Assembly (NCBI GenBank): GCA_902634405.1
Contig: CACPJY010000003.1
Location: forward strand, 62,001-126,000
Origin: an uncultured Synechococcaceae cyanobacterium
Lineage (GTDB): Bacteria > Cyanobacteriota > Cyanobacteriia > PCC-6307 > Cyanobiaceae
Reading direction: 5' to 3'
DNA length: 64,000 nucleotides
The position numbers and the translations under genes are program-made. The notes below the pieces were generated by a model, which was not told where the DNA came from, ran no database searches, and saw only the letters and a list, made by a program, of their open reading frames with translations. Numbering within the stretch: the stretch's first letter is position 1; each line of letters begins with the position of its first letter. Of the stretch, positions 6,758-51,092 are shown in pieces.

Positions 6758-7513
6758 ATGCCCTTAACTGCCACTTACTACGGTTCAAATGGTTGGCTTT
6801 TGGAGTTTGATGATTTTCGTATTCTTGTAGATCCCTGGCTTAGAGATTCACTCAAATTCAAGCCAGGGGCTTGGCTCTTTGAAGGTAAATTACCCAAGAA
6901 AATAGAGCTTCCAAAGGGAGTAGACCTTGTTTTACTGACTCAAGGTCTTGCTGATCACTCTCATCCTCCAACACTTAAATCATTACCTAAATCAATCCCA
7001 GTAATCGGTTCCTCTACGGCTTCAACTGTATGCAAAGATTTGGGTTTTCTTAAGGTCTCTACAATTCATCCGGGAGACATTCTCCAAATAAATGACCTAA
7101 AAATAGAAGCTACTGCTGGGGCATCTGTACCAAGATTAGAAAACGGCTATTTACTTAATCACCCTTCAGGGGCAGTATATTTAGAACCTCATGGATACCT
7201 TGATCCTAAAATCACTCCTCAACAAATAGATGCAGCTATAACACCTGTCATAGATATAAAATTGCCATTATTTGGAGCATTTGTCAGAGGTAAAAGCGTT
7301 TTACCTGATTTAATTAATAGATTAAATCCACTAACAGTTCTTTGTAGTACGGCCGGTGGGAATGCAAGCTATAGCGGGCTAATCCAGAGTTTAATTCAAA
7401 CAGATGGCAGTCCAACAGAGATTTTAGAAACATTTTCAGAAAAGACCTTCTTCATAGATCCAGTCCCTGAAACCCCTTATGCACTAAGGACTAGAACCTA
7501 TTCAGGGAAATAA
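6758..7513 (+). CDS. metallo-beta-lactamase-fold hydrolase-like protein (UlaG-type)
   Basis: This 251-residue protein follows the UlaG-like beta-lactamase fold: TYYGSNGWLLEFDDFRILVD with DPWL (residues ~3-28), a first-loop segment TQGLADHSHPPT (~61-72), PVIGSSTA, and a C-terminal region with KLPLFGAFVRGKSVLPDL. In the canonical family the loop is THxHxDH; here the leading His is replaced (TQGLADHSH), so metal binding is altered. Homologous plastid-lineage proteins share this loop, so it may have a special chemistry rather than being dead. ATG start; monocistronic between minus-strand genes. Confidence 0.75.
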   Translation: MPLTATYYGSNGWLLEFDDFRILVDPWLRDSLKFKPGAWLFEGKLPKKIELPKGVDLVLLTQGLADHSHPPTLKSLPKSIPVIGSSTASTVCKDLGFLKVSTIHPGDILQINDLKIEATAGASVPRLENGYLLNHPSGAVYLEPHGYLDPKITPQQIDAAITPVIDIKLPLFGAFVRGKSVLPDLINRLNPLTVLCSTAGGNASYSGLIQSLIQTDGSPTEILETFSEKTFFIDPVPETPYALRTRTYSGK

Positions 7514-7764
7514 GCAATATTCAAATTACTAACGACTTTAGTCATTTATATTCACTGTAAAATGAATTCTTAAATCCACAAAAATTTCTGTTCCTTGATA
7601 CTCAGGTGAGCAGGGATAAGGTTAACAAAAACGTGACAAAAAATTCATTGTTAGCTATTACAAGAAAATATAAAATTGACTCTCATTACTTCTCACCCTA
7701 CGGGGAACTTACTCATAAAGTTTTTCCCATTTTCATACTCTCAGCAGAAAAGATGTGAGTAGAC

Positions 7765-7797
7765 AAAAAAAACCCCCGCTAAAAAGCGGGGGTTTTT
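7765..7797 (-). terminator. intrinsic terminator of the first pcb gene
   Basis: An 8-bp GC-rich stem (cccccgct / agcggggg) with an AAAA loop, flanked by A-runs and T-runs on both sides, so it can act in both directions. It lies 20 bases past the pcb stop and also downstream of the plus-strand hydrolase gene. Confidence 0.9.
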
Positions 7798-7816
7798 AAA
7801 AGGAATAACTTGAATC

Positions 7817-8881
7817 CTATGGGTTCAAGTTGAAACGAAGGTCAGGGCCTCCATTACCTGCTGCCTCGATTACACGTTTGAAATCAAAGCCCATCGCTCT
7901 AAGTGCATGCCAAAGATGACCTTGTAAAGCAAAGAATCCCAAACCATAGTGGATGTTAACTATGGCCATACGTGTTGTATGTCCAAAGAAAGCACCATCA
8001 GTTAAAGGGACAGTATCTATCCAATAAGGAGCAATACTAAATTTCAATGCCAAGGGCTCACCAAACCATTCAATTGGATAGACGGTTGTATTAGTTGAAG
8101 CCCAGAAAGCAGCAACAATTGCCATCCAACCAATACCAGCTAGAGACCAAGAAAGTATGGCTTCTGCCGAAAGTAAATTTGCACCTTTGAATTCAGTGTA
8201 TTCGCCAATTTGCTTTGTAGCGATGTGGAAAGCTCCACCACCAATTTCAAAGAAAGCTAAAAAGGCATGTCCACCCATTACATCTTCAAGGCTGTCAATT
8301 GTGAGGAAGTCAAATTGATGATTCCAGATAGCTGTCAAGTCAAGGTTGTAATTGACCTGTCTGACTGCACCAATTGCAGGGTCATAGATACCGTGAACCC
8401 TTGCCCACTCAACAAACCATATGCAGGCAACTCCAAAGAAAATCAGATGGTGGCCAAGAATAAAGGTCTGATTATCTGGGTTATCCCACTCAAGCTTGAA
8501 CTTTCTTACTTGAAGCACCTCTTCATTCTGGGTATCCGCTTCAAAAAGAACGGCATGTAAAAGCCCACCAGCTCCATAAACCATTGAGAAGACCAGATGC
8601 AGAAGGGCAATTGTGACTACACCTGCTCCTGTCCAAGCACCAGTTTCATCAAAACCAATGCCTATAGATGCCAAATGGCCAAGAAATATTGAGCTCTGAT
8701 GCCCCATTGGGATTGATGGGTCATAGCGAGCAAGCTCAGAAAGGGTTGCTGCACCTGCCGCGAAGCAAATCATTCCGGTATGCGCAGCATGCGAAGCTAT
8801 GAATCGGCCTGAGCGGTTAGTAACCGAGGCATTCCCAGCCCACCACCCGTAGGTGACATCTGGATTTCCATAGGTCTGCAT
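7817..8881 (-). CDS. pcb: divinyl-chlorophyll a/b light-harvesting antenna protein Pcb
   Basis: Pcb proteins are the thylakoid antenna of Prochlorococcus, six-helix relatives of CP43 and IsiA that bind divinyl chlorophylls a and b and surround PSII or PSI. The 354-residue product starts MQTYGNPDVTYGWWAGNASV, keeps the family segments NRSGRFIASHAAHTG, FILGHHLIFFGVACIWFVEW, SLEDVMGGHAFLAFFEIGGG and LSWSLAGIGWMAIVAAFW, and ends with GHLWHALRAMGFDFKRV. The conserved helix histidines are chlorophyll ligands. It resembles the copies at 9831 and 44770 far more than the one at 22473, so a PSII-type role is likely (inference). It shares its upstream leader with the copy at 9831. I do not assign a paralogue letter. 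Confidence 0.95.
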   Translation of the reverse strand: MQTYGNPDVTYGWWAGNASVTNRSGRFIASHAAHTGMICFAAGAATLSELARYDPSIPMGHQSSIFLGHLASIGIGFDETGAWTGAGVVTIALLHLVFSMVYGAGGLLHAVLFEADTQNEEVLQVRKFKLEWDNPDNQTFILGHHLIFFGVACIWFVEWARVHGIYDPAIGAVRQVNYNLDLTAIWNHQFDFLTIDSLEDVMGGHAFLAFFEIGGGAFHIATKQIGEYTEFKGANLLSAEAILSWSLAGIGWMAIVAAFWASTNTTVYPIEWFGEPLALKFSIAPYWIDTVPLTDGAFFGHTTRMAIVNIHYGLGFFALQGHLWHALRAMGFDFKRVIEAAGNGGPDLRFNLNP

Positions 8882-9830: not shown

Positions 9831-10916
9831 TCAGCTTTTAACGAAAAAGCTTTCGTCCTTCTCATTCCCTACAGCACTAGTTAACTTTTTAAAGTCAAAA
9901 CCTAAAGCGCGAAGAGCATGCCAAAAATGACCTTGAAGGTAAAAGAACCCAAGGTAATAGTGAACATTGGTCAAAGCAGCACGGGTGGTATGTCCGAAGA
10001 ATGGGCCTCCTTCAGGCAAATCAACGCTATCAATCCAATAAGGAGAAATTCCAAACTTGATTTGTAAAACCTCTCCATACCAAGCCTCAGGATAAACAGT
10101 TGTATTGGTTGCACACCAGAAAGCAGCAACAATTGCCATCCAACCGATACCAGCTAGAGACCAAGAAAGAATAGCTTCAGCAGAAAGCAAATCAGCGCCT
10201 TTGAATTTGCTGTATTCACCAAGCCGCTTATCTTCCCAAGCTGTTGATCCTGCTATTACGTGAAAAGCACCACCAGTAATTTCTGCGAAGGCCAAAAAGG
10301 CATGACCACCCATTACATCTTCAAGGCTGTCAATCCCAATGAAATCAAACTGACGGGCCCAAATCATTGAGAGGTCAAGATTGTAATTAACTTGCCGTAC
10401 AGCCCCGACAGCTGGATCGTAAATACCATGAATTCGAGCCCATTCAACAAACCAAACACAAGCAACACCAAAGAAGATCAAATGATGTCCAAGGATAAAA
10501 GTCTGATTATCTGGGTTGTCCCACTCAAGCTTGAATTTTCTAGCCTGTAGAACCTTGCTTTGCTGCATGTCTTCGTCAAAAAGAACTGCATGCAACAAAC
10601 CTCCTGCCCCATAAACCATTGAAAGGATTAGGTGAAGGATTGCCAGAGTTACAACCCCAGCTCCTGTCCAAGCTCCAGCTTCATCGAACCCGATGCCAAT
10701 TGAAGCCAAATGTGCAAGAAAAATCGAACTCTGATGCCCCATAGGGATAGAGGGATCAAAACGCGCAAACTCCCAAAGGGTTGAAGCACCAGCCGCAAAA
10801 GCAATAAGACCGGTATGCGCAGCATGAGAGGAAATGAATCGTCCTGAGCGGTTAGTCACCACAGAATTACCAGCCCACCACCCGTAGGAAGGGTTTGGAT
10901 TTCCATAGGTCTGCAT
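9831..10916 (-). CDS. pcb: divinyl-chlorophyll a/b light-harvesting antenna protein Pcb
   Basis: This is a 361-residue Pcb antenna protein with all six helices of the CP43/IsiA family: MQTYGNPNPSYGWWAGNSVV, NRSGRFISSHAAHTG, FILGHHLIFFGVACVWFVEW, SLEDVMGGHAFLAFAEITGG, GHFWHALRALGFDFKKL. Compared with the copy at 7817 it carries a short insertion, GSTAWEDKRLG, in the loop after the GGAFH helix. It lies 900 bases upstream of that copy on the same strand, separated by the oppositely oriented gene at 9342, so the pair looks like an old tandem duplication. It has its own terminator and shares the leader with the first copy, so the two are probably separate transcripts under similar control. Confidence 0.95.
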   Translation of the reverse strand: MQTYGNPNPSYGWWAGNSVVTNRSGRFISSHAAHTGLIAFAAGASTLWEFARFDPSIPMGHQSSIFLAHLASIGIGFDEAGAWTGAGVVTLAILHLILSMVYGAGGLLHAVLFDEDMQQSKVLQARKFKLEWDNPDNQTFILGHHLIFFGVACVWFVEWARIHGIYDPAVGAVRQVNYNLDLSMIWARQFDFIGIDSLEDVMGGHAFLAFAEITGGAFHVIAGSTAWEDKRLGEYSKFKGADLLSAEAILSWSLAGIGWMAIVAAFWCATNTTVYPEAWYGEVLQIKFGISPYWIDSVDLPEGGPFFGHTTRAALTNVHYYLGFFYLQGHFWHALRALGFDFKKLTSAVGNEKDESFFVKS

Positions 10917-22472: not shown

Positions 22473-23528
22473 GTGCAGACTTACGGAAACCCTAACGTCA
22501 CATATGACTGGTACGCGGGTAATTCTGGTGTAACAAACCGCTCAGGTAAATTCATCGCAGCTCATGCAGCACATGCAGGGTTGATGATGTTCTGGGCTGG
22601 TGCATTCACACTTTTTGAATTAGCTCGTTATGACCCTTCATTGCCAATGGGCAATCAAGGCTTAATTTGCCTGCCTCATTTAGCAGGCCTGGGTATTGGT
22701 GGAATTGAAGGTGGTGTTATTACAGACCCTTATGGTTGCACCGTTATCGCTGTATTGCATCTAATTTTCTCAGGAGTATTAGGAGCTGGGGGTCTTCTCC
22801 ATTCATTGAAATTTGAAGGAGATCTTGCAAATGCCACTGGAAGACCCAAAAAGTTTGATTACGACTGGGATGATCCTGATCGTCTGACTTCGATCCTGGG
22901 ACATCATTTAATTTTCTTAGGCCTTGGTGCTATCCAATTCGTTGAATGGGCCAAGTATCACGGTATTTACGATGCCGCTCAGGGAATTGTTCGAACAGTT
23001 GAGCCAAATTTAAGTGCTGCAATGGTCTGGAATTATCAAGCTGATTTCCTATCCATTTCAAGCCTAGAAGATGTAATGGGAGGACATGGCATCCTTGCTT
23101 TTATTCTTATTAGCGGAGGAGCCTTCCACATAGCTACTAAACAATTTGGTGAGTACACCGAATTCAAAGGCAAAGGCTTGTTATCAGCCGAATCTGTTCT
23201 CTCATATTCACTAGCAGGAATTGGGTACATGGCTTTTATTGCAGCCTTCTGGTGCTCGATGAACACTACTGTTTACCCAACAGAGTTGTACGGTGAAGTC
23301 CTGAAAATCAATTTTGAATTTTTCCCTTACTTCACTGATACAGCGAATAACCTTCCTATAGATGTGCACACATCTCGCGCCTGGTTATCAAATGCTCATT
23401 TCTTCCTAGGATTCTTCTTCTTACAAGGCCATCTATGGCATGCATTAAGAGGAATGGGTTTTGACTTCAGAAGAGTAGGAAAGGCTTTCGAAAATTTTGA
23501 GAATGCCAAGATTACAGCAAATGACTAA
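22473..23528 (+). CDS. pcb: Pcb antenna protein, IsiA/PSI-associated type
   Basis: A 351-residue Pcb, clearly divergent from the other three in this window. It starts from GTG (MQTYGNPNVTYDWYAGNSGV), has MMFWAGAFTLFELARYDPSL, QGLICLPHLAGLGIGGIEGG with a short loop insertion, FILISGGAFHIATKQFGEYT, and ends GHLWHALRGMGFDFRRVGKA. Where the others read SIGIGFDETGAWTGAGV this has a GIEGG/DPYGCTV version, as in iron-stress IsiA. In SS120-type strains the iron-induced, PSI-associated Pcb is of this kind (pcbC); placement next to flavodoxin supports that role (inference). A strong terminator follows. Confidence 0.92.
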   Translation: MQTYGNPNVTYDWYAGNSGVTNRSGKFIAAHAAHAGLMMFWAGAFTLFELARYDPSLPMGNQGLICLPHLAGLGIGGIEGGVITDPYGCTVIAVLHLIFSGVLGAGGLLHSLKFEGDLANATGRPKKFDYDWDDPDRLTSILGHHLIFLGLGAIQFVEWAKYHGIYDAAQGIVRTVEPNLSAAMVWNYQADFLSISSLEDVMGGHGILAFILISGGAFHIATKQFGEYTEFKGKGLLSAESVLSYSLAGIGYMAFIAAFWCSMNTTVYPTELYGEVLKINFEFFPYFTDTANNLPIDVHTSRAWLSNAHFFLGFFFLQGHLWHALRGMGFDFRRVGKAFENFENAKITAND

Positions 23529-42275: not shown

Positions 42276-43154
42276 CTATAGCCTTGAAAGTAAATACTGT
42301 TCCCTTGCTCTTTCGCGAGAAATCTTCTGGTAAACAAGTTCTTGATTGATAAAGCTATGATCAGTTATGAAAGAACTAGAAAGTAGTTTGGAAAGCTTAG
42401 AATAAATACCACAGTACTCAAAAGACTCTTCTATTAAATGAAGGCTAGAGTGGCTATTTAAGATATTTATAGTCTCTTTACATTCATCAAACAATGACAG
42501 ATCCTCTAGAATTAAAATGGAATTATTCGTGCGTTCAAAAATATCTAAAGCAACAGATCCGTAAGTTACGATTAAATTATCGCTATCTCCCTTCTTAAAA
42601 AGACTTCTACCTACTTTATGGATGGTAAAAGGAATGTCAGAAATATTATCTGGTGTAGGCTGTCGATCCAAGCGTAAATAGAACTTGCCTCCATTATTTA
42701 CATATTTTTTGGTTATTTGAAGTGCTGATTGTGATGTGAAAGGAGTATAAATTTGGAATCCAGGAATCGAATAAAACAAGCTGATATCTTCTAAAGAATA
42801 ATGGGACAATGTATTATGGTCATAACCTATACCATGCCCTACTGTCATTAGTAGAATATTCTCGTTGGTCTGTCCAAAAAGAACCTTAAATTGCTCAATA
42901 CATCTAGTAGTGAGAAAAGGGCTCATTCCATATAAAATTGGATTTTTCCCTAAGAGTGAAGCTCCATAACAATAGTCAACCGAAAATTGTTCCGATATAC
43001 CTGGGAAAATAAATAATTCGGGATTAGTCTCTCTATATAAGTCTAGAGCCTTAGCTCCGAAATCTGGGGTCACAAATAACAACTTATTTTTAACACCGTT
43101 CTCTAAAAATGTGAGATGATCAATAACTCGATCTCGTTGCAGACTTTTATTCAT
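42276..43154 (-). CDS. transketolase C-terminal half (split transketolase, subunit B)
   Basis: A 292-residue protein equal to the pyrimidine-binding and C-terminal domains of transketolase: FIFPGISEQFSVDYCYGASL (glutamate region expected to activate ThDP), ILLMTVGHGIGYDHNTLSHY and LIVTYGSVALDIFER. Its start overlaps the end of the N-terminal subunit gene by eight bases, the mark of a translationally coupled pair. Such split enzymes occur in secondary sugar or isoprenoid pathways rather than in the Calvin cycle, so the substrate is probably a special ketose in surface-sugar synthesis (inference). Confidence 0.85.
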   Translation of the reverse strand: MNKSLQRDRVIDHLTFLENGVKNKLLFVTPDFGAKALDLYRETNPELFIFPGISEQFSVDYCYGASLLGKNPILYGMSPFLTTRCIEQFKVLFGQTNENILLMTVGHGIGYDHNTLSHYSLEDISLFYSIPGFQIYTPFTSQSALQITKKYVNNGGKFYLRLDRQPTPDNISDIPFTIHKVGRSLFKKGDSDNLIVTYGSVALDIFERTNNSILILEDLSLFDECKETINILNSHSSLHLIEESFEYCGIYSKLSKLLSSSFITDHSFINQELVYQKISRERAREQYLLSRL

Positions 43155-43959
43155 CCTTCAAACTAGCTAAAAGCTGAGAGATTGCATAATCAAGCTCTTC
43201 ATTAGTAGGCATTTTATTATGCCATAGATGTGATGCTTCCATAAAATCTATACCTTTACCTTTTATAGTTTTAGCATATATTGCAAACGGACCTTTATCT
43301 GTATTCTCTTTTATATATTGAAAAGATTTTTTAATATCTACATAGGAGTGACCATCAATAGATTGCGTATCAAAGCCACATGCTCTGAAAAGATCCAGTG
43401 TCTTCAAATTTGGATAGGTCATATCAAGATCACCCAGAATGCTTCTATTGTTTCCATCTATAATTACAACTATATTCTTTAATTTCTTAGCTCCTACATA
43501 TTGAGCAGCTTCCCATATAGATCCTTCTGTACATTCACCATCTCCTAAAAAAATAAAAATACTTGAATTATTTTCTTTAGTTGACTCTGACATGCCTGCC
43601 GCCACCCCCAAGCCATGCCCTAAGGATCCAGAAGGCATTAGAATGAATGGTATATCTGTATTAGGGTAAATACCAAAAGGAGAGCCTTCTTTTCCGTAGG
43701 AAATTTTGCTGAAATCCACTAAACCTCTTCTTACGAGAAAAGGGTAAACAACACTTGCCGCATGCCCTTTACTAATTATGAGATTTTTGACATTCGTATC
43801 ATGAAGGATTAATTGGTTTATATATAAATAGGAAATTATATCTATAATAGAAAAGACAGAAGGTGTTAATGCCTCTCTCGAACCATAAATAATTCTCAAG
43901 TATTCTATACGAAGTAGTGTTGTTATTCTCTGAAACTCTTTAGGAGTTATTTGTGTCAT
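43147..43959 (-). CDS. transketolase N-terminal half (split transketolase, subunit A)
   Basis: A 270-residue protein carrying the ThDP diphosphate-binding half: LIISKGHAASVVYPFLVRRG, GSLGHGLGVAAGMSESTKEN and the ThDP motif FLGDGECTEGSIWEAAQYVG through IDGNN (~129-160), then GHSYVDIKKSF and AKTIKGKGIDFMEASHLWHN. Together with the overlapping downstream gene it makes a complete two-subunit transketolase. Upstream lies an SIS-domain isomerase gene on the same strand, 30 bases away, likely in the same operon. Confidence 0.88.
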   Translation of the reverse strand: MTQITPKEFQRITTLLRIEYLRIIYGSREALTPSVFSIIDIISYLYINQLILHDTNVKNLIISKGHAASVVYPFLVRRGLVDFSKISYGKEGSPFGIYPNTDIPFILMPSGSLGHGLGVAAGMSESTKENNSSIFIFLGDGECTEGSIWEAAQYVGAKKLKNIVVIIDGNNRSILGDLDMTYPNLKTLDLFRACGFDTQSIDGHSYVDIKKSFQYIKENTDKGPFAIYAKTIKGKGIDFMEASHLWHNKMPTNEELDYAISQLLASLKDE

Positions 43960-43989
43960 GGTTTAACTTTTAGATGCAAGAAAAGGCTT

Positions 43990-44550
43990 TTAGGAAATAC
44001 GTGGGGAAACCCAGCCAGCACTAACTATCAGTTGATAACCTATTGCTAATGCTACAACCTCTGACTTGTGATAGGTATCACAATTAGTATTTAAGATATT
44101 ACACTTGCTAGGAAGATTAAGAGATTCTTTTGCTGTTATCAAGGATGTATTCACCCCAACTGAGTCTGCATATTTGATTAACTTTAAAGTATCTTTACTC
44201 CTGCCAGAACTTGAAATCCCTATTAGCAATGTTGACTCAAACTCTAACATTTTCTCAAAAGATTTAAACCAACTAACTAGCCATTCTTCAAAACTCGAGT
44301 CATTAATATGTGATGTAGCATGTATTACAGAACCTGGGGAAAAAGTTATTTTCTCCCCTTTAGTCAATCTAGAGGTATCAACAGCAATATGATCAGCTAT
44401 TGCAAGATTTCCACCATGACCAACAAAAATAATATATTTTGCTTTTTTGTAGGAATCTAGTAACTTTGTCCAGGATTCACCACAGAATAAATCTGTCAAC
44501 AGGTCGTCTACATTACCTATCCCTAGAGAAGGGTTTTCAGTTACTCTCAA
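43990..44550 (-). CDS. SIS-domain sugar isomerase (GmhA/phosphoheptose-isomerase-like)
   Basis: A 186-residue single SIS domain: IIFVGHGGNLAIADHIAVDT (sugar-phosphate binding), ITFSPGSVIHATSHINDSSF, LLIGISSSGRSKDTLKLIKY (Ser/Thr-rich phosphate loop) and a C-terminal VVALAIGYQLIVSAGW. This is the GmhA type that isomerises sedoheptulose-7-phosphate. First gene of the transketolase operon. A transketolase that makes sedoheptulose-7-phosphate followed by a GmhA-like isomerase would give a heptose-phosphate, but kinase and nucleotidyl transferase genes are not next to it. Confidence 0.78.
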   Translation of the reverse strand: MRVTENPSLGIGNVDDLLTDLFCGESWTKLLDSYKKAKYIIFVGHGGNLAIADHIAVDTSRLTKGEKITFSPGSVIHATSHINDSSFEEWLVSWFKSFEKMLEFESTLLIGISSSGRSKDTLKLIKYADSVGVNTSLITAKESLNLPSKCNILNTNCDTYHKSEVVALAIGYQLIVSAGWVSPRIS

Positions 44551-44769: not shown

Positions 44770-45813
44770 TCAAGTAGAGGCGAAATTAAGTTTTGCACCT
44801 ATATCCTTGAAATTAAATCCCATAGATCTCAATGCATGCCAGAGATGACCCTGAAGTGCAAAGAATCCAACTATGTAGTGGAAATTAGCTAAGTAACAAC
44901 GTCCAGAAAACTGTGAGAAGCCTACAAGGTTGTTGTAATCAGCTGTGTCTTGAAAAGCTGGAGCAACTAAGAAAACCTGCTTAAGAGGTTCTCCATAAAA
45001 CTCGACTGGATAAACAGTTGTATTGGTTGCGCACCAAAAAGCAGCAACTATTGCCATGAAACCAATTCCAGCTAGAGAGAAAGAAAGAATTGATTCTGCT
45101 GAAAGCAAACCAGAACCTTTGAATTTGGTGTATTCACCAAGTTGCCTAGTCGCAATATGGAATGCCCCACCTGTTATTTCCAAGAAGGCCAAAAATGCAT
45201 GTCCTCCCATCACATCTTCAAGGCTGTCAATTGTAAGGAAATCAGTCTGATGGCCCCAAATCTGACTTAAATCAAGGTTGTAATTCACCTGACGAATTGC
45301 CCCTATAGCCGGGTCATAAATGCCATGGACTCTTGCCCATTCGACAAACCAAACGCAAGCAACTCCAAAAAAGATCAAATGGTGGCCAAGGATAAATGTC
45401 TGATTATCTGGGTCCCCCCAGTCGAGCTTGAATTTTTGAGCCTGTATAACCTCACTTTTTTGCATGTCATCAGGGAAATAGATTGCATGCATCAATCCTC
45501 CCGCTCCATAAACCATCGAAAGGATGAGGTGAACGATTGCGATTGTCACAACCCCTGCCCCAGTCCAAACGCCTGTCTCATCAAAGCCAAGACCAATTGA
45601 AGCCAAATGTGGAAGGCTTACAAAACCTTGGGCACCCATTGGAACAGATGGGTCAAAACGAGATAGCTCAAAAAGAGTGTTGGCACCAGCCGCAAATGAG
45701 ATCAGTCCTGTATGCGCAGCATGCGAGGCAATAAAACGACCTGAGCGGTTGGTGACCATTGAATTACCAGTCCACCAACCATAGGTGACACTTGGATTTC
45801 CATAGGTCTGCAT
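44770..45813 (-). CDS. pcb: divinyl-chlorophyll a/b light-harvesting antenna protein Pcb
   Basis: A 347-residue Pcb of the same type as those at 7817 and 9831: MQTYGNPSVTYGWWTGNSMV, VTNRSGRFIASHAAHTGLIS, TFILGHHLIFFGVACVWFVE, SLEDVMGGHAFLAFLEITGG, YIVGFFALQGHLWHALRSMG. It differs in the SVPMGAQGFVSLPHL segment and in the lumenal loop before the last helix (PAFQDTADYNNLVGFSQFSG), and it lacks the C-terminal extension of the 9831 copy. Its upstream region does not share the leader of the other two. Likely PSII-type; letter not assigned. Confidence 0.95.
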   Translation of the reverse strand: MQTYGNPSVTYGWWTGNSMVTNRSGRFIASHAAHTGLISFAAGANTLFELSRFDPSVPMGAQGFVSLPHLASIGLGFDETGVWTGAGVVTIAIVHLILSMVYGAGGLMHAIYFPDDMQKSEVIQAQKFKLDWGDPDNQTFILGHHLIFFGVACVWFVEWARVHGIYDPAIGAIRQVNYNLDLSQIWGHQTDFLTIDSLEDVMGGHAFLAFLEITGGAFHIATRQLGEYTKFKGSGLLSAESILSFSLAGIGFMAIVAAFWCATNTTVYPVEFYGEPLKQVFLVAPAFQDTADYNNLVGFSQFSGRCYLANFHYIVGFFALQGHLWHALRSMGFNFKDIGAKLNFAST

Positions 45814-47247: not shown

Positions 47248-48429
47248 CTAAGCTTTTATAGTTTCACTGAAGAGTTTTAAATAGAGCTCAATTCGCTTTT
47301 GAAGTAGTGATTGGTTAATTGGATAATTTAAAAGCTTTCTAGCAAAGGGATTCTTAGCAGATATTCTAAACAACGGATTGTTATAACAGGAGGAAAATAA
47401 AAATAAATTCCTTAAGGAGAATAATGAAGTCAAAGGAGGCATAGAAGTTTTATAAATACTTGTATAGAATTTCTCAGTAATATCTTTGGAAAAAAAAGAT
47501 CCTGAACGAGAAATAGCAAGATATGTAAGAAGAGTAAATAGAGACTCCTCTAGAAAGCTAGAAGTGTATTTTGTACCTTTAATTTGAACTAGTCTAGAAA
47601 AGGATCTGACTGAATTCTTAAAGAGATCGTATTCATCACTTGAATGTAAAAGACCAATTATCGCTCCTCTATTCTCAATAGTACCTTCTAATGATAATTG
47701 GTTAGTAATGCCATCTATACGGTCATGATTACTGCGAATCGACATTCGATGATGAGGAATAAATTTAGATTTACCAGCAATGCTGATGAGTGTCATCCAA
47801 GAGATCTCTTCGGACAACCACCATAATGAATTATCTATATCAACAGAAAATGGATGTGTTCCATAGATCTTACGGTATTCCTTGACGAGAGAATCGCATG
47901 AATCTTTTGAAACTACTCCGAAATAAAGAAGTGAGCTAAGGCAAAAATATTCAAAAATACGATCCATTGGATCGTCAGAGTTTGGGTGATCGGACCAGTA
48001 TTTGTTGAAGTCGACGTCTGGTTTAGAGCCTGTAAAGTTTATTTTGACTTCATTCGAATGGACTGCAGAATAATCAGTATTTGAACTTAGAAAATTCGTT
48101 GCATAATCAAAAAAGTCATGAACGAGTGATACATCATCATCACAAGCAATGGTAAAGTATTTCTCTTCAACAAGCTCTATTGTATTGATTGTAGAAAGAT
48201 TAACTCTGGCACCTCTATTATGTAGATTAGAAGTAGGACTTATGTAATGATATAGCTTTAATTTAGAGTTGTAATCTCTAACAATTTTCACATTTTGATC
48301 TAAAGATTGTCCTTGAGAATCGTCAGCTATATAAATAGTACCTTTATAGTTAGTAAAGAAATAAAAATCTAGGCAATTTTTCAGAAGTTTGTGCCTATTT
48401 CGAGTTCGAATTATCAAAGCATGATCCAT
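47248..48429 (-). CDS. TIGR00180-type glycosyltransferase
   Basis: A 393-residue family-2-like glycosyltransferase: MDHALIIRTRNRHKLLKNCL, a strand IYIADDSQGQS (first acidic pair), FTIACDDDVSLVHDFFDYAT with the DDD metal/nucleotide motif (~95-97), and the family's SIRSNHDRIDGITNQLSLEG. Substrate unknown; probably transfers a sugar in surface-glycan synthesis. Divergent from the radical SAM gene at 48596. Confidence 0.78.
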   Translation of the reverse strand: MDHALIIRTRNRHKLLKNCLDFYFFTNYKGTIYIADDSQGQSLDQNVKIVRDYNSKLKLYHYISPTSNLHNRGARVNLSTINTIELVEEKYFTIACDDDVSLVHDFFDYATNFLSSNTDYSAVHSNEVKINFTGSKPDVDFNKYWSDHPNSDDPMDRIFEYFCLSSLLYFGVVSKDSCDSLVKEYRKIYGTHPFSVDIDNSLWWLSEEISWMTLISIAGKSKFIPHHRMSIRSNHDRIDGITNQLSLEGTIENRGAIIGLLHSSDEYDLFKNSVRSFSRLVQIKGTKYTSSFLEESLFTLLTYLAISRSGSFFSKDITEKFYTSIYKTSMPPLTSLFSLRNLFLFSSCYNNPLFRISAKNPFARKLLNYPINQSLLQKRIELYLKLFSETIKA

Positions 48430-48595
48430 GTTTTAATGACTAGATTAATTATGAGTAAGAAATTTAATTATACACAATACAGATCATTTATGAATATCTT
48501 GCAAGGACTTAACCTGAAAGGGTTAAATTTAACACTCGAATTATTCATAAGCTTGATTTTGCTGAGTTTGGGATGTAGCGTAAAATATAGGATAA

Positions 48596-50200
48596 ATGAG
48601 TCATAGTAAACTCCTGACCCAAAACAAAATTGACATGAATACTGAAAGGATTGATTGCGTATTTGTAAATGCTTCGAGCAACTCAGTAGCATTTCAAGAA
48701 TTAGCAAATAATTACTCAGCGGTTGAGACTCCTACTTGGGCGCTGCTATTAGCCGATTCAGCGAGATCCAAAGGTTTCAAAGTTAAGATAATTGATGCAG
48801 AAGCAGAAAGACTAACTGATTCAGAGGTGAGTTCCAGGTTACAAGATTTAAACCCTAGCCTTATTGTTTTAGTTGTTTACGGTGGTTCTCCTAATGCCGG
48901 CACTACATGCATGATTGGAGCCAGCAGAACTGCTAAGGAACTAGCGAAACACTTTTCTAATATTGCCTTTGTAGGATCACATGTAAGTGCATTACCAAAA
49001 GAAGTTCTTGCTGCAAACTATGTTGATATAGTATTTACAAATGAAGGTGTGTATGCTCTACATAACCTACTTTCATTGATTAGGCTAAAACCAAATGAAT
49101 GGAAAGATGAATTAGCTATGATCAAGGGCATAGGGTATAAAGATAAGAATAAGAATATAATTTTAAATGATCCCGAAAAGATAGTCCCGCAAGATCGAAT
49201 GGACATTGACCTACCCGGCTATGCTTGGGATTTACTACCTTTTAAGAAAAGGCCTCTCGACCTATATAGATCTCACTACTGGCATTCCAATTTTAACGAT
49301 CAGGAAAGAACACCTTTTGCTGCAATTTATACTTCATTAGGCTGCGTTTACGGATGTGGCTTCTGTATGATTAATATTTTAAATAGAACAGACAATAATG
49401 ATGGTATAAGTTCATCAGATTCAAGAATAATGAGATTTTGGTCTAAGCAATGGATCTCGAAAGAACTGGAAAAATTGGCAGGTTATAAAGTAAAAACTCT
49501 AAAATTTTCAGATGAAATGTTTTATTATAATGAGAAGCACTACATCCCAATATTAGAAGCTCTAGAAAAACAGAATCATGAGTTTAATATTTGGTGCTAT
49601 GCAAGAGTAGATACTGTAAGGCCTAAACATTTGGCAAGGTTTAAGAACGCAGGTATAAATTGGCTTTGTCTTGGGATTGAGTCAGGAAATCGTTTAGTGA
49701 GGAGAGAGGTAAGCAAGGGTTCATTTAAGGATGTAAAAGTAGAAAGCGTAGTTGAAGAAATTCAAAGGAATGGTTTATTTGTACTGGGAAACTATATTTT
49801 TGGTTTACCTGAAGATGACATGCAAACAATGCAAGACACTCTGAGCATGGCGCTCGAAATGCCTACAGAACATGCGAATTTTTATACTTGTGTAGCGTTG
49901 CCAGGATCACCTCTATACGTAGAGGCTTTAGCTCAAGGCAAACCTTTGCCTAATCATGATGAATATGAAAAATTTGCATTCTTAAGTTATGAACATATAC
50001 CATTAGCGTCTGCTTACTGCTCTCAAGTAGAAATACTAGAGTTCAGAGATAGAGCTTGGAATAAATATTTTACAAATAAAAGATATCTAAATTTTGTAGA
50101 AGAAAGATTGGGTAAAATAGCTAAGGAAAACGTAATAAAAATGTCCAAAATCAAACTCAAGAGGAGAATTATTGATGAGTCGTCTTCAGAAAACAATTAA
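48596..50200 (+). CDS. B12-binding-domain radical SAM enzyme
   Basis: A 534-residue protein with an N-terminal cobalamin-binding-type Rossmann domain (IDCVFVNASSNSVAFQELAN, LLLADSARSKGFKVKIIDAE, SLIVLVVYGGSPNAGTTCMI, FVGSHVSALPKEVLAANYVD, residues ~18-165) and a radical SAM domain whose cluster motif is SLGCVYGCGFCMIN (CxxxCxxC, ~247-260), followed by LGIESGNRLVRREVSKGSF and YIFGLPEDDMQTMQDTLSMA. Such enzymes do methylations or rearrangements on natural products, sugars or lipids. Next to a StrG-like dioxygenase on the same strand, it is likely part of a surface-sugar or secondary-metabolite pathway (inference). Start may be the second ATG (MNTERID). Confidence 0.88.
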   Translation: MSHSKLLTQNKIDMNTERIDCVFVNASSNSVAFQELANNYSAVETPTWALLLADSARSKGFKVKIIDAEAERLTDSEVSSRLQDLNPSLIVLVVYGGSPNAGTTCMIGASRTAKELAKHFSNIAFVGSHVSALPKEVLAANYVDIVFTNEGVYALHNLLSLIRLKPNEWKDELAMIKGIGYKDKNKNIILNDPEKIVPQDRMDIDLPGYAWDLLPFKKRPLDLYRSHYWHSNFNDQERTPFAAIYTSLGCVYGCGFCMINILNRTDNNDGISSSDSRIMRFWSKQWISKELEKLAGYKVKTLKFSDEMFYYNEKHYIPILEALEKQNHEFNIWCYARVDTVRPKHLARFKNAGINWLCLGIESGNRLVRREVSKGSFKDVKVESVVEEIQRNGLFVLGNYIFGLPEDDMQTMQDTLSMALEMPTEHANFYTCVALPGSPLYVEALAQGKPLPNHDEYEKFAFLSYEHIPLASAYCSQVEILEFRDRAWNKYFTNKRYLNFVEERLGKIAKENVIKMSKIKLKRRIIDESSSENN

Positions 50201-50276
50201 TAATTGTACATCATTATAGAATAAAATTATATAGTATAGAATTTTATTCTATAATGAATACATTGAAGTTGTAAAG

Positions 50277-51092
50277 ATGAATCCAAATGAGCAAAAAGCT
50301 TGTGAGCAATCGGTTAGAAATTACTATGAAGAGCCTGTTCAAACATGGAGGATAAATAGCGAAGTGAATATTCCCTATATTGAGAAGCTAAGAGAAATAA
50401 TAGGAAATCAGATAAAAAATAAGTTTAATATCCTAGAGGAAGTAAGTCTTGAAAAAATTTATAAATTTATAGATCCTTCGAAATTAACGAATGACAATCA
50501 TGGAATTACAGCAATCACACAAGAACTTTATGAAGCTGGTGAGGAGTTCTTCTTTTACTATAAAAAGTTAACCAAGCATATTCTTGCTATTTTCGGGGAC
50601 AATTATGTAATCCAAAGGCAACCAACTATACGAGCACATTTCGAGCCCTTTTCTAAATATGGCTTTTACCCATCTTGGCATTCTGACTTATTATTAGGTC
50701 ATCCTCCAGGAACAATTAACCTCTGGATGCCTTTTACTAGGCCAGACCCTATCAATTCTCATGGGTTTAGTCTAACTAGTCATTCAACAAGTCAGCATAC
50801 ATTTAAAAGATATTGCTTTGATTCACCATATGATGGAGTCAAGTTAATATCAAAAGCCGAGCAATTAAATCAACAACAAATTCCAGTTAAAATAGAACCT
50901 GGCAAAGCGCTTATTTTTGACAGTAGGACAATACATTCAGGCCTCCCCTCTGACAGACATTTACGTGTTTCAATGGATATCAGGGTTATTAATAGAAGGT
51001 ATTTGAGTCCTCCTAACCCTCTATATCGATCTGGTAGGAAGCGAGTACCATTCAGCGAGGGTTATTTCTATATAAATTACAAAGATAATTAA
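50277..51092 (+). CDS. StrG/PhyH-like Fe(II)/2-oxoglutarate dioxygenase
   Basis: A 271-residue protein. The iron-binding triad fits SWHSDLLLGHPPGTINLW (HxD, ~135-152) and a distal His in IFDSRTIHSGLPSDRHLR (~214-231), with an Arg nearby for 2-oxoglutarate. The GxINLWMPFTRP segment and C-terminal SMDIRVINRRYL resemble StrG-type sugar hydroxylases in aminoglycoside clusters. Follows the radical SAM gene by about 77 bases on the same strand, so the two may modify the same sugar. Reaction is inferred. Confidence 0.75.
   Translation: MNPNEQKACEQSVRNYYEEPVQTWRINSEVNIPYIEKLREIIGNQIKNKFNILEEVSLEKIYKFIDPSKLTNDNHGITAITQELYEAGEEFFFYYKKLTKHILAIFGDNYVIQRQPTIRAHFEPFSKYGFYPSWHSDLLLGHPPGTINLWMPFTRPDPINSHGFSLTSHSTSQHTFKRYCFDSPYDGVKLISKAEQLNQQQIPVKIEPGKALIFDSRTIHSGLPSDRHLRVSMDIRVINRRYLSPPNPLYRSGRKRVPFSEGYFYINYKDN

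Follow-up and report, generated by a model that had tools for sequence, protein, structure and literature searches.

Radical S-adenosylmethionine (SAM) enzymes with a cobalamin-binding domain, such as OxsB, TsrM, TokK, CysS and MgmA, have known substrates that are mostly not sugars. AprD4 of the apramycin pathway, a radical SAM 1,2-diol dehydratase, acts on a sugar and has the reductase AprD3 as its partner (PMC5461906). Cobalamin radical SAM enzymes most often catalyse C-methylation (PMC11659888; see also PMC13331322). Branching of keto sugars has been proposed or shown for several classes of thiamine diphosphate (ThDP) enzymes, namely YerE-like decarboxylases, the two-subunit alpha-KADH2 and split-gene transketolases; in the part of that account available to us, the ketone-branching split transketolases are reported from Streptomycetes only, have not been tested in vitro and come with no mention of a radical SAM partner (PMC12247030). 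Here we examine a 64,000-nucleotide stretch of DNA from an uncultured Synechococcaceae cyanobacterium (GenBank assembly GCA_902634405.1, contig CACPJY010000003.1, positions 62,001 to 126,000; hereafter the window), which encodes a radical SAM enzyme with a B12-binding domain beside a glycosyltransferase and a 2-oxoglutarate (2OG)-Fe(II) oxygenase. Relatives of this radical SAM protein nearly always stand next to ThDP enzymes whose architectures resemble those of the miharamycin/amipurimycin split transketolase, alpha-KADH2 and the YerE-like enzymes, and we lean towards the view that the family works with a ThDP carboligase in making an unusual sugar, probably branched or deoxy, for a surface glycan.

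The association is tight and reciprocal. When radical SAM proteins less than 90% identical to each other are counted as non-redundant loci, a ThDP enzyme lies within 3 kb of the radical SAM gene in 33 out of 37: a pair of the pyruvate dehydrogenase (PDH)-E1 type (hereafter E1-type) in 20, a split transketolase in 11, both in one and an acetohydroxyacid synthase (AHAS)-like enzyme in one. The other four loci are situated at contig ends or have a ThDP enzyme further off on the contig. Among viral loci, counted on the best 80 of 151 IMG/VR contigs, a ThDP enzyme is present in 74 of 80, and the radical SAM gene directly adjoins the ThDP gene in 63 of 81 instances. The reciprocal scan with the N-terminal half of the transketolase revealed one split-transketolase clade (support 98/92) which is adjacent to the radical SAM gene in all 15 of its rows, and a sister clade mostly adjoins a more distant B12 radical SAM protein. 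Another, distantly related family of B12 radical SAM proteins, with profile scores of about 300-360, was observed beside its own split-transketolase clade (loci L123, L124, L131, L133, L161, L128 and L139), and several of its members have the strand-3 cobalamin-loop region missing from the alignment.

The ThDP partner itself has been exchanged repeatedly. Starred branches of the radical SAM tree force 6-9 changes of partner type, where every ThDP gene of a locus counts towards its type label. At one and the same phage position, radical SAM proteins that share 77% identity adjoin different ThDP types. This suggests that the partner types are functionally interchangeable. Since the linkage is kept even as the partner is replaced by another enzyme of similar chemistry, it provides strong evidence for joint function. 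The arrangement differs from that of AprD4, where a reductase takes the place held here by the ThDP enzyme.

The gene neighbourhoods in which the relatives lie, and their sporadic presence, give good support to a sugar-modification island, as the first-pass annotation had proposed. Epimerases, DegT, HddA/HldE-like kinases, nucleotidyltransferases and glycosyltransferases surround the radical SAM genes, and in the non-phage copies a kinase, a split transketolase or E1 pair, GDP-fucose synthase, DegT and a nucleotidyltransferase recur. At E<=1e-30 the radical SAM protein is present in 4 of 400 genomes of the family, the source genome counted in; one other cyanobacterial genome carries a relative of 54% identity, and plasmids of Azospirillum and Solidesulfovibrio encode relatives of 35-38% identity within sugar clusters. 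On the viral side, an alignment query identified relatives on 151 IMG/VR contigs, of which the best 80 are 46-55% identical; a single-sequence query of the genome and viral contigs had returned almost no matches. T4-type core genes (gp23, UvsW, gp46/47 and the like) occur in 49 of these best 80 loci. The supposition that genes of this kind do not belong in streamlined marine genomes fails for marine phages, in which relatives are widespread. Among cultured phages the sole relative is a protein of Streptomyces phage SF3 (23% identity), with none for the glycosyltransferase or the oxygenase, and the family has no PHROG. We consider the protein a member of a previously uncurated family, found in cyanobacteria, on proteobacterial plasmids and in marine T4-like phages. 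Radical SAM genes of marine T4-like phages have been reported without a function, and the part of the same source describing the pelagimyophage host recognition cluster reports neither a function nor a ThDP link there (PMC7029224); one genome with 12 radical SAM genes is also on record (PMC5332604).

In one T4-like lineage the genes usually run from UvsW through a small gene to radical SAM, ThDP half 1, ThDP half 2, HddA-like kinase, DegT, epimerase, gp47 and gp46, and the position of the cassette between UvsW and gp47/gp46 is fixed in T4-like contigs (L014-L093; e.g. L024, L026 and L067). Some viral loci contain further genes, encoding an MTAN-like nucleosidase in nine of them, an APT-like protein in six and an FNR-like reductase in three; the three types are adjacent near the radical SAM gene in L079 (11436-13378), L080 (11434-13376) and L085 (12300-14104). 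These genes fit the support of an active radical SAM enzyme, and they plausibly form a kit that would clear 5'-deoxyadenosine and S-adenosylhomocysteine and supply electrons. A locus binned in a picocyanobacterial genome (L013, G079:C3:22000-41000) looks like a T4-type phage contig, having a gp32-like SSB; its radical SAM gene is accompanied by PanB-like and AHAS-like genes. Another viral contig (L016) encodes two distinct B12-type radical SAM proteins (649-2034 and 7267-8811) and an E1-type pair.

What kind of enzyme is the radical SAM protein of the window? It matches the radical SAM domain PF04055 (E 1.6e-12, over the gathering score), and its N-terminal Rossmann cobalamin-binding domain is recognized by PF02310 (E 7.5e-9, 35.9 against a gathering score of 32.1), which also matches 26 of 30 family members at E<=0.001. 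C250, C254 and C257 of the CxxxCxxC cluster are invariant in all 30 members, and the core is of the TIM type, as in the radical SAM superfamily. The predicted structure is confident (pLDDT 92, pTM 0.91), and a fold search with it matched MgmA, OxsB, AprD4, TsrM, CysS and TokK about equally, AprD4 having the highest TMq (0.64). A missing cobalamin domain or a class such as tRNA thiolation had been named beforehand as fatal to the first-pass annotation; we find PF02310 above its cutoff and the MiaB/RimO folds weaker, and domain matches and modelling alike point to the cobalamin-type class. OxsB, TsrM, TokK, CysS and MgmA share the N-terminal Rossmann domain, the domain order and the fold with the window protein, but their identity to it is only 13-17% and the residues of the lower-face loop differ.

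Because the nearest folds match about equally, the fold does not decide the reaction. In profile comparison with solved structures AprD4 comes out best (E 3.9e-18), with CysS, TokK and TsrM at E 4e-4 to 4e-3. None of the curated radical SAM families is passed by the window protein, whose best scores are far under cutoffs of 400-600: HpnJ TIGR03471 at 102.8 (cutoff 577.6), BchE at 81.5 (481.35), PhpK at 63 bits, TIGR04295 B12_rSAM_oligo at 54.9 (400) and AprD4 NF033070 at 49.8 (500). HpnJ and BchE give the top NCBIfam scores, yet no hopanoid or bacteriochlorophyll genes were recognized near the radical SAM gene. The C-methylation originally suggested for the protein is thus one option and not an established one, with the AprD4 dehydratase closest by profile and no curated family passed.

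What could the two enzymes accomplish together? The radical SAM enzyme would alter an activated or phosphorylated sugar, through AprD4-like dehydration or deoxygenation to a keto sugar, C-methylation or a rearrangement of the ring. The ThDP enzyme, whether split E1-type, split transketolase or AHAS/YerE-like, would add a few carbons, probably branching the sugar at a keto carbon, and kinases, nucleotidyltransferases, epimerases and glycosyltransferases would complete the sugar. The analysis shows the gene identities, the motifs and, in relatives, the linkage of radical SAM and ThDP genes with its repeated change of partner; the substrate, the order of reactions, their union in one pathway and the branched or deoxy nature of the sugar are inferred. 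The module is carried by marine T4-like phages, which presumably use it for remodelling the host surface. More tentatively, and rather less likely than not, cobalamin-type radical SAM enzymes and exchangeable ThDP carboligases might generally join in a two-enzyme route, new to biochemistry, that leads to branched or deoxy-branched sugars, acting in phages as a surface-conversion cassette, in some with its own nucleosidase, adenine salvage and electron supply genes, and residing also in islands of streamlined cyanobacteria.

The island of the window (Table 1) would realize this scheme in an atypical form, with the radical SAM gene beside an oxygenase and a glycosyltransferase, and with a split transketolase, accompanied by a GmhA-like isomerase, as the only ThDP enzyme close by. 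The transketolase and isomerase genes, at 42276-44550, lie outside the interval considered by the first-pass annotation, which missed the ThDP partner.

Table 1. Features of the island and their positions in the window
Feature	Positions	Strand	Remarks
Split transketolase, pyrimidine-binding half	42276-43154	-	Catalytic Glu in GISEQ intact
Split transketolase, ThDP-binding half	43147-43959	-	GDG...NN motif intact
SIS-domain isomerase, GmhA-like (sedoheptulose-7-phosphate isomerase family, under cutoff)	43990-44550	-	
pcb/isiA-type chlorophyll antenna gene	44770-45813	-	Between the transketolase pair and the radical SAM group
Glycosyltransferase, TIGR00180-type	47248-48429	-	393 aa; TIGR04440 just under cutoff; DxD motif (CDDD)
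Radical SAM enzyme with B12-binding domain	48596-50200	+	534 aa; Pfam, alignment, model, viral relatives and tree
2OG-Fe(II) oxygenase, distant TIGR04324 (SpoChoClust_2) relative	50277-51092	+	271 aa; HxD...H...R motif

The glycosyltransferase, radical SAM and oxygenase open reading frames are intact and contiguous, exactly where they had been placed, and their Pfam and TIGRFAM matches are far above chance. The glycosyltransferase scores 69.5 bits against TIGR04440 (E 3.2e-19, cutoff 70). The oxygenase retains the 2OG-Fe(II) facial triad, with H135 and D137 (HxD), the distal H220 and also R227 kept in comparison with the TIGR04324 protein of locus L204. Its assignment to the StrG type, unlike the B12 radical SAM and 2OG-Fe(II) identities, could not be upheld: it reaches 16.7 against PhyH PF05721, under the cutoff of 22, and the nearest family, TIGR04324, is also matched under cutoff (E 2.4e-9, 37.2 bits, cutoff 150). 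A single-sequence structure model of the oxygenase was discarded (pLDDT 31). The genes are very AT-rich in absolute terms, as had been noted, but unexceptional relative to the window's own genes (z = -1.2, -0.4 and -0.6), and we reject an AT anomaly as a mark of transfer, their GC content being ordinary for the window.

Several observations on the window copy weigh against its participation in the proposed alliance. The transketolase pair is 4.6 kb from the radical SAM gene, beyond the 3 kb by which we delimit the module, on the opposite strand and with a pcb gene between. In the transketolase tree it forms a long branch (length 3.5) outside the 15-row radical-SAM-linked clade. The radical SAM protein itself falls inside the family tree, in a starred clade of five rows that includes cyanobacterial members as well as the viral L014, and clusters with E1-associated cyanobacterial proteins; no E1 pair was found in the 78%-complete genome. 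The loop after strand 3, which we place below the cobalt by reference to the strand-3 loop described in PMC13331322, has a near-invariant YGQN in the family, and the window protein alone lacks the Q-N, reading YGGS (Q97G, N98S; codons 97-98, 48884-48889). Against the proposal at large, neither structure nor sequence matches fix the reaction, and the phage contigs are IMG/VR predictions, some of them short. The tree led us to reject the window transketolase pair as a direct member of the phage module. We put at near even the chances that the window's two gene groups, the transketolase with its isomerase and the radical SAM enzyme with the oxygenase and glycosyltransferase, act together.

The surrounding genome (1.56 Mb) contains several pcb genes, which makes its affiliation with Prochlorococcus a fair guess. 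Four pcb/isiA-type antenna genes lie within the window (7817-8881, 9831-10916, 22473-23528 and 44770-45813), and together with the scant synteny with relatives around purU they point to a rearranged or variable region. In the relative G021 a pcb gene adjoins purU, which suggests that the local arrangement may stem from an insertion between these two genes, next to purU. The adjacency is only a candidate empty site, since the pcb gene of G021 resembles a different pcb gene of the window more closely. Conserved synteny around purU was rejected, being absent in 10 of 11 relatives, as was a tRNA-linked insertion, there being no tRNA in the window.

Another possibility is that the glycosyltransferase, radical SAM enzyme and oxygenase form a unit of their own, as the first-pass annotation implied, in which the radical SAM enzyme C-methylates a sugar, the oxygenase hydroxylates it and the glycosyltransferase attaches it, the transketolase pair being unrelated. 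The contiguity of the three genes, the shared direction of the radical SAM and oxygenase genes across a 76-base gap, the prevalence of C-methylation among cobalamin radical SAM enzymes (PMC11659888) and the position of the window transketolase outside the linked clade all accord with such a unit. We nevertheless regard it as unlikely. No other genome searched contains the trio: no glycosyltransferase relative was found in 300 family genomes (E<=1e-8), and no oxygenase relative in 60 relatives (E<=1e-5) or in the viral contig scans. What constantly accompanies the family is a ThDP enzyme rather than an oxygenase, and the best profile match among solved structures is AprD4, which is no methylase.

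The sugar-making role proposed for the ThDP partner also accords with picocyanobacteria, where split transketolases occur with GmhA-, HldE-, GmhB- and nucleotidyltransferase-like genes, with HddC-like genes too, and in some cases with TIGR04324. Given the GmhA-, HldE-, GmhB- and HddC-like genes, the ThDP step can also well be read as belonging to a heptose-type or higher-sugar pathway. The ‘sporadic carbohydrate cluster’ of TIGR04324 combines a split transketolase, a GmhA-like isomerase and a 2OG oxygenase, as does the window; it differs in its epimerase, HldE-like and nucleotidyltransferase genes, which are not near the window genes, and in the low score of the window oxygenase (37 against a cutoff of 150). 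We also observe four picocyanobacterial clusters (L204, L205, L206 and L207) with the TIGR04324 oxygenase 3-7 kb from the split transketolase, most with GmhA-, HldE-, GmhB- or nucleotidyltransferase-like genes, and otherwise similar clusters with a zinc alcohol dehydrogenase in place of the oxygenase.

Such clusters raise the question of whether the window copy is a drifting relic, deprived of its E1-type partner, with the transketolase pair and isomerase as remains of a heptose-type cluster. The unique substitutions in the cobalamin loop, the long transketolase branch and the absence nearby of most picocyanobacterial cluster genes would be expected of decay. We find this quite improbable, as all six open reading frames, those of the glycosyltransferase, radical SAM enzyme, oxygenase, both transketolase halves and isomerase, are full-length with the catalytic motifs checked kept (CxxxCxxC, GDG...NN, GISEQ and HxD...H), and the radical SAM protein is up to 55% identical to its relatives over the full length and has a confident model. 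Least probable by far is salvage of 5'-deoxyadenosine, in which the split transketolase and isomerase would use 5-deoxyribose from the radical SAM by-product to make a 7-deoxysedoheptulose-type sugar: a cyanobacterium does form 7-deoxysedoheptulose from 5-deoxyadenosine via 5-deoxyribose (PMC8261047), and MTAN- and APT-like genes stand beside the radical SAM gene in some phage cassettes, but the known route runs on promiscuous household enzymes, MTAN-like genes occur in just 9 of 80 viral loci, with E1-type and transketolase-type partners alike, and no nucleosidase was recognized beside the window genes.

The partnership of the radical SAM family with ThDP carboligases, being tight and reciprocal, offers a concrete and testable chemistry for phage radical SAM genes. 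It pairs each of them with a defined co-enzyme and, beyond Streptomyces, puts forward split transketolases and E1 pairs as candidates for sugar branching. In Prochlorococcus, the locus represents a rare island of glycan modification that is specific to the strain and may bear on phage recognition.

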